Positions 40,530-41,510 of a stretch of DNA of 64,000 bases are shown here, one piece after another. The stretch lies in contig CANFMT010000004.1 in assembly GCA_947448415.1 (NCBI GenBank), forward strand, positions 51,253 to 115,252. The letters are read 5' to 3'. Made by a program: the position numbers and the translations under genes. Numbering within the stretch: position 1 is the stretch's first letter; every line of letters begins with the position of its first letter. Below the pieces are notes generated by a model. That model had not been told where the DNA came from and made no database searches. It worked only from the letters and a program-made list of their open reading frames with translations. The DNA comes from Burkholderiaceae bacterium (GTDB lineage: Bacteria > Pseudomonadota > Gammaproteobacteria > Burkholderiales > Burkholderiaceae).

Positions 40530-40564
40530 TTTTTATAAATATGAGGTGTTAATGAAATTCTATT

Positions 40565-40591
40565 TTAGCACTCTTGTCAAGAGAGTGCTAA
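40565..40591. promoter_or_regulatory. CIRCE element (HrcA operator) upstream of rpoH
   Basis: TTAGCACTC-TTGTCAAGA-GAGTGCTAA: perfect 9-9-9 CIRCE consensus, 35 nt upstream of the rpoH ATG. Confidence 0.95.
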
Positions 40592-40619: not shown

Positions 40620-41510
40620 TTAATTGAATAATTCAGATGAATATTGCCCTGCTGTAAAGGGGGCTAAATCATCAATTCCTTCACCTTTACCAAGAGCTAA
40701 AACAGCTGGTTTTGGGTCATCCTGTAGGGTGTGAGCCAACGCGCAGATTACTCCGCCTTTGGCGGTCCCATCAAGCTTGGTAACAATGATTCCAGTAAGG
40801 CCTAAGGCAGCATGAAAAGCTTTCACTTGACTCAATCCGTTCTGCCCTGTGTTGCCATCTAAAACCAGCAAGGTATGGTGAGGGGCCCCAGGAAGCGCCT
40901 TGCCAATGACCCGTTTCACTTTCTTCAACTCTTCCATGAGGTTGTCTTGAGTCGCAAGACGGCCTGCAGTGTCAATAATGAGAATATCGTTTTTGCGAGA
41001 AACAGCAGCATGAATGGCGTCGTGCGCAACGGCAGCAGCATCGCCACCCTCCTGGGTGATGACCTCAACTTGATTGCGTGTACCCCATTCTTGTAGTTGA
41101 TTGCGTGCAGCAGCCCTAAAGGTATCTCCGGCAGCCAATAAGATCGATTTGCCTTGAGATTGGAAGAGTCTGCAAAGCTTGCCTATGGTTGTAGTTTTAC
41201 CGGCACCATTGACCCCAACAACCAACCAAACCTCGGGTGTATGGGCCTGCTGGCTTGTAAACAGTGGGTTTGATGATGGTTCGATGGCAGCTAATAGTGA
41301 GCTAACTTCTTGGACTAGAAGCGCTTGCAGTTCTTCGGGGCTAGAAGCTTTTTCAGATTTTGCCGCTTTACGTAACTTGCTGATTAATTGTTCAGTCGTG
41401 GGCAGGCCCACATCACTTTGAATCAGTGATTCTTCTAAGGCATTAAACCAAGATTCATCAATCTTGCCTGATTTAAATAGAGAGCCGAGGGTTTTACGTA
41501 AGCTGAACAT
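40620..41510 (-). CDS. ftsY: Signal recognition particle receptor FtsY
   Basis: GVNGAGKTTTIGKL, DTFRAAARNQL, DTAGRLATQDNLM, TKLDGTAKGG. Confidence 0.96.
   Translation of the reverse strand: MFSLRKTLGSLFKSGKIDESWFNALEESLIQSDVGLPTTEQLISKLRKAAKSEKASSPEELQALLVQEVSSLLAAIEPSSNPLFTSQQAHTPEVWLVVGVNGAGKTTTIGKLCRLFQSQGKSILLAAGDTFRAAARNQLQEWGTRNQVEVITQEGGDAAAVAHDAIHAAVSRKNDILIIDTAGRLATQDNLMEELKKVKRVIGKALPGAPHHTLLVLDGNTGQNGLSQVKAFHAALGLTGIIVTKLDGTAKGGVICALAHTLQDDPKPAVLALGKGEGIDDLAPFTAGQYSSELFN

Follow-up and report, generated by a model that had tools for sequence, protein, structure and literature searches.

The perfect CIRCE inverted repeat in the rpoH leader of a freshwater Polynucleobacter is very probably bound by HrcA, which would repress rpoH transcription from atop the core promoter, with heat derepressing both rpoH and groESL. 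The repeat lies in a 64,000-nucleotide stretch of genomic DNA (the window), and the nearest named relatives of the source genome are likewise Polynucleobacter. Features of the locus are collected in Table 1.

Table 1. Observed and predicted features at the rpoH locus of the window
Feature	Position	Strand	Basis
Predicted HrcA binding site (CIRCE), perfect 9-9-9	40565..40591	-	0 mismatches; conserved at rpoH; presence tracks hrcA
rpoH, sigma-32, 307 aa	39606..40529	-	TIGR02392 381 bits (cut-off 323), E 3e-114; NF005143 3.6e-118
ftsY, gene upstream of rpoH	40620..41510	-	TIGR00064 1.2e-94
Putative extended -10, TGCTAAAAT, right arm plus three flanking bases	40562..40570	-	Column conservation; TG before hexamer flagged by scan
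TTAGCA, -35-like hexamer in left arm, 18 bp before -10	40586..40591	-	Promoter scan; A3 to G bias
Predicted transcription start, 7 nt past -10; leader of about 26 nt	40555..40555	-	Inferred from alignment and scan
TTGACA in spacer, possibly the -35 of a further promoter downstream in one clade	40575..40580	-	28/37 Polynucleobacter leaders

At the operator the plus strand of the window reads TTAGCACTCTTGTCAAGAGAGTGCTAA, a perfect match to the CIRCE consensus TTAGCACTC-N9-GAGTGCTAA. An exact CIRCE 35 nt before the rpoH ATG on the minus strand was what the original prediction had claimed, and both the match and the distance were confirmed (locus L001), as was the identity of the gene as RpoH by TIGR02392 and NF005143. 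The repeat therefore occupies the promoter/leader region of a heat-shock gene. No other CIRCE occurs in the window at three or fewer mismatches, against 0.02 expected by chance. A chance dyad is ruled out by this expectation, by the 6-10 mismatches that the same scan returned in control stretches further upstream of rpoH, and by the association with hrcA described below.

The prediction also depended on an hrcA gene elsewhere in the genome. The source assembly (2.09 Mb, 85% complete) contains one intact, full-length copy encoding 336 aa (PF01628 3e-62; TIGR00331 E 1.2e-89, above the equivalog cut-off), with neighbours that we take, from our own reading of the ORFs, to be NAD-kinase-like and ferrochelatase-like genes rather than dnaK. 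Exactly two CIRCE sites were found genome-wide at two or fewer mismatches, at rpoH and groES, so the predicted HrcA regulon, within the coverage of the assembly, is groESL plus rpoH. A third CIRCE-like site (L003, 3 mismatches) is located within an open reading frame and was treated as a chance occurrence.

The rpoH leaders of 117 genomes of the order Burkholderiales were extracted and the best CIRCE match was scored in each. At four or fewer mismatches, the site was present in all 104 hrcA-positive genomes, in 42 of them perfectly, and in 1 of 13 hrcA-negative genomes, among which we counted one with only an hrcA fragment (G119); the best matches in the other 12 had 5-8 mismatches, close to the values in the control stretches. 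Conservation of the dyad before rpoH, on which the original prediction likewise hinged, thus extends over close and distant relatives and tracks hrcA. The Fisher p value for this association (1.7e-15) ignores kinship; independent losses are the stronger argument. The hrcA-negative genomes are spread over seven families in which hrcA and the site were lost together, and in three of these families sister species retain both. One genome that has lost hrcA (G069) carries ATAGCACAC...GGTGATAA in its rpoH leader, with 5 mismatches, which looks like a decayed operator; the operator of its congener G113 is perfect. The discordant hrcA-negative genome that has the site (G087) is 84% complete, and its hrcA probably went unassembled.

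At least one CIRCE was present in 36/36 congeners searched, and almost every genome of the order has precisely two. The site was found at two or fewer mismatches in 79 of 80 named loci (Polynucleobacter, Cupriavidus, Paraburkholderia, Pandoraea, Herbaspirillum, Variovorax, Achromobacter and others); the remaining one is cut by a contig end. Judged from these comparisons, a CIRCE at rpoH is an ancient arrangement shared by nearly all Betaproteobacteria that retain HrcA. One genome (G082) has two rpoH matches on separate contigs (L107 and L115), each with a CIRCE in its leader (1 and 2 mismatches).

All 104 rpoH operators of the order were aligned, with the groES operators of the same lineages (n = 41) as a control. 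Conservation continues past the palindrome on one side only: n-A-T comes after the right arm, and no such conservation is seen at the mirror positions on the left. Right arm and flank together yield TGCTAAnAT, an extended -10 of the form TGnTAnnAT, and the full nAT is found in 84/104 sites, with TTAGCA or TTGGCA as a -35-like hexamer at a spacing of 18 bp. T at +3 occurs in 103/104 rpoH sites versus 4/41 groES sites (Fisher p 8e-29); only this base is counted as promoter evidence, because A at +2 is frequent at groES as well (34/41). In the left arm, A3 is replaced by G in 39/104 rpoH sites, giving the TTGGCA variant, which is nearer to TTGACA, and the corresponding change of its mirror base, T25 to C, occurs in none of the 104. 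We propose that the left arm serves as the -35 region of rpoH and the right arm with its three following bases as the extended -10. As the operator would then lie over the core promoter, bound HrcA would block RNA polymerase.

A promoter scan of the window leader gave a single hit, TTAGCA-18-TAAAAT with TG ahead, exactly on the operator. Sigma-70 matches as good as its 9/12 are just as common when the region is shuffled (mean 1.0), and the argument for promoter overlap therefore rests on cross-species conservation. In two other Polynucleobacter loci (L030 and L033), an in-frame ATG falls exactly at the predicted transcription start, which suggests a leaderless rpoH mRNA there. Several rpoH starts have been reported in Cupriavidus metallidurans, in a main text that gives no coordinates (PMC7563307).

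The original prediction was that the operator may overlap a -35 box at a TTGACA in the spacer, which would put the -10 further downstream. The hexamer is indeed there on the minus strand, and it occurs in 28 of 37 Polynucleobacter leaders, where it is kept at 96-100% per base and a weak TCTATT follows 18 bp on. Outside one Polynucleobacter clade, however, no TTGACA was seen among the aligned leaders of the order, which rules it out as a general -35. The candidate -10 in the source genome (TTTCAT/TTCATT, 16-18 bp) matches at no more than 4/6 and is absent from the scan output, and TGCTAAnAT is conserved far more widely. We thus consider the spacer version unlikely. The signal shared across the order is the putative extended -10 of the right arm; the spacer TTGACA is not an order-wide element and is perhaps a local second -35 in the one clade.

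A second promoter element precedes the operator in most of the order, where a GGAACTT-like sequence is found 16-17 nt upstream. With one mismatch at most, GGAACTT is present between -18 and -13 in 64/104 leaders versus 0.5 expected, and the operator reads TCTnA 16-17 bp past it, the proper sigma-E spacing. The combination has the form of a sigma-E promoter in which the TC of the operator itself serves in the -10. A12 is present in 59/65 rpoH sites with the GGAACTT element, 4/28 without it and 6/41 at groES. None of the Polynucleobacter leaders checked has the element, and rpoE was found by TIGR02939 (E 1e-30) in none of seven Polynucleobacter genomes (G000, G001, G004, G005, G016, G024 and G027, the source included), in contrast to most of the other genera sampled in the order. 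A sigma-E promoter of rpoH (GGAACTT-N16-TCnnA) is not supported in the source organism, where the best match to GGAACTT is 4/7 and no rpoE was found. G069, which lost hrcA and has rpoE, retains GGAACTT.

Outside the order, a CIRCE at rpoH was found in 8/9 gammaproteobacteria that have hrcA and a CIRCE, and one alphaproteobacterium has it likewise. Nine hrcA-negative gammaproteobacteria were fetched; eight had a scorable leader, and the site was present in none of these eight. Most of the aligned gammaproteobacterial sites have no nAT after the right arm, so the sigma-70 promoter overlap predicted here is, on present evidence, a betaproteobacterial feature; several have GGGAAC or GGAACT just upstream. 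Three gammaproteobacteria have their sole CIRCE at rpoH. In G183 (L151) and G245 (L153), both gammaproteobacteria, the sole CIRCE-like site is at rpoH and is altered on both arms (TTAGCAGTC...GACTGCTAA in G245), which suggests a shifted DNA preference of HrcA. Another gammaproteobacterium, G268 (L155), combines a diverged HrcA (E 4e-35) with a single perfect CIRCE, at rpoH, and its HrcA regulon may have shrunk to sigma-32 alone.

We give about an even chance to a composite origin, in which the 27-bp operator already combined a sigma-70 promoter (both arms) with a sigma-E -10 in the ancestor that Beta- and Gammaproteobacteria share. Its parts would have been lost separately, HrcA together with the operator in several Burkholderiales families and in many gammaproteobacterial lineages, and sigma-E together with its -35 in Polynucleobacter. 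With such an operator, a single repressor would gate both inputs to sigma-32.

HrcA might bind the site and yet matter little, if the output of sigma-32 depended mainly on mRNA structure, inhibition by chaperones and proteolysis, and CIRCE did no more than trim basal transcription. E. coli offers the precedent, the RpoH of the window has an RpoH-box-like QRKLFFNLR, and read-through from ftsY is possible and could bypass repression. Sigma-32 may be controlled additionally at translation and stability. A minor role for HrcA nevertheless seems improbable to us, given an operator that is near-perfectly kept throughout the hrcA-positive genomes of the order and lost with hrcA, and given the three gammaproteobacteria in which rpoH has the only CIRCE and HrcA would therefore otherwise be without a CIRCE-type target. 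Far less credible is an action of the inverted repeat as RNA, either as a 5' leader hairpin affecting stability or sensing temperature or as an ftsY terminator. A 10-bp hairpin is predicted in the RNA (z -2.3), but the predicted start is downstream of it, so that an rpoH transcript from that start would not contain it. The 18 bases of the arms are mostly invariant instead of covarying, the loop varies freely, and the site is lost along with hrcA; fixed arms and linked loss argue against an RNA hairpin as the conserved feature. There is no T-run terminator, and the scan of the leader region found no terminator-like site between ftsY and rpoH, which argues against a transcription terminator at the dyad.

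With the dyad as an HrcA operator laid on the rpoH promoter, the circuit would work as follows. Heat would tie up GroEL (or inactivate HrcA), HrcA would release its operators, and rpoH and groESL would be derepressed. Newly made sigma-32 would then serve the chaperone genes, including groESL via its own CTTGAA-type promoter, and rising GroEL would restore HrcA. The GroEL feedback is proposed by analogy with HrcA as established in other bacteria. In the groES leaders (L002 and L250-L285), the operator is preceded by a CTTGAA ... CCCTAT sigma-32-type promoter ending at or beside the CIRCE, and a CTTGAA-type element lies upstream of 32/41 groES sites versus 4/104 rpoH sites. Operator and repressor are common to groESL and rpoH, in the source genome (L002) and order-wide, whereas the promoters differ: at groES the operator follows a sigma-32-type promoter and seldom has T at +3 (4/41), and at rpoH it lies on one of predicted sigma-70 type. 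The hierarchy originally proposed, with HrcA above sigma-32, holds in that HrcA is predicted to control rpoH, given the hrcA gene and the conserved site. It does not hold as a pure hierarchy. As groESL is itself a predicted direct HrcA target with its own sigma-32-type promoter, the wiring would form a feed-forward loop.

A CIRCE at rpoH is of a kind already known, since one was predicted before rpoH of Geobacter sulfurreducens in 2004 (PMC545781, Table 8). As given there, G. sulfurreducens resembles the source genome in having a perfect TTAGCACTC-N9-GAGTGCTAA, at -51 from rpoH, along with hrcA and a groESL CIRCE. It differs in that a CIRCE also precedes the hrcA-grpE-dnaK-dnaJ operon, whereas hrcA of the source genome stands apart and has no CIRCE. 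In the sections of that paper covered here, no description of a promoter overlap at the Geobacter rpoH CIRCE was found (PMC545781). A literature search of partial coverage returned no description of a CIRCE at rpoH in Betaproteobacteria, and we claim no priority for the wiring. We could find no description of the linked losses, or of the operator-promoter overlap that involves sigma-70 and sigma-E elements.

E. coli has no HrcA, and its rpoH has a sigma-E promoter, P3. Most sampled Betaproteobacteria resemble E. coli in a predicted sigma-E-type promoter of rpoH (GGAACTT, with TCTnA 16-17 bp on). Unlike in E. coli, the putative sigma-E -10 of Betaproteobacteria is inside the HrcA operator, and Polynucleobacter has neither rpoE (0 of 7 genomes) nor the element.

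Textbooks assign chaperone operons to HrcA and place the control of sigma-32 at post-transcriptional steps. Our data indicate that HrcA stands above sigma-32 in almost all Betaproteobacteria and in the majority of the gammaproteobacteria sampled that retain it, and that the betaproteobacterial operator is fused to the rpoH promoter. This is a clear prediction for the well-studied Paraburkholderia, Cupriavidus, Herbaspirillum and Variovorax, and comparing lineages in which HrcA, sigma-E or both have been lost would put the evolution of the E. coli heat-shock circuit to the test.
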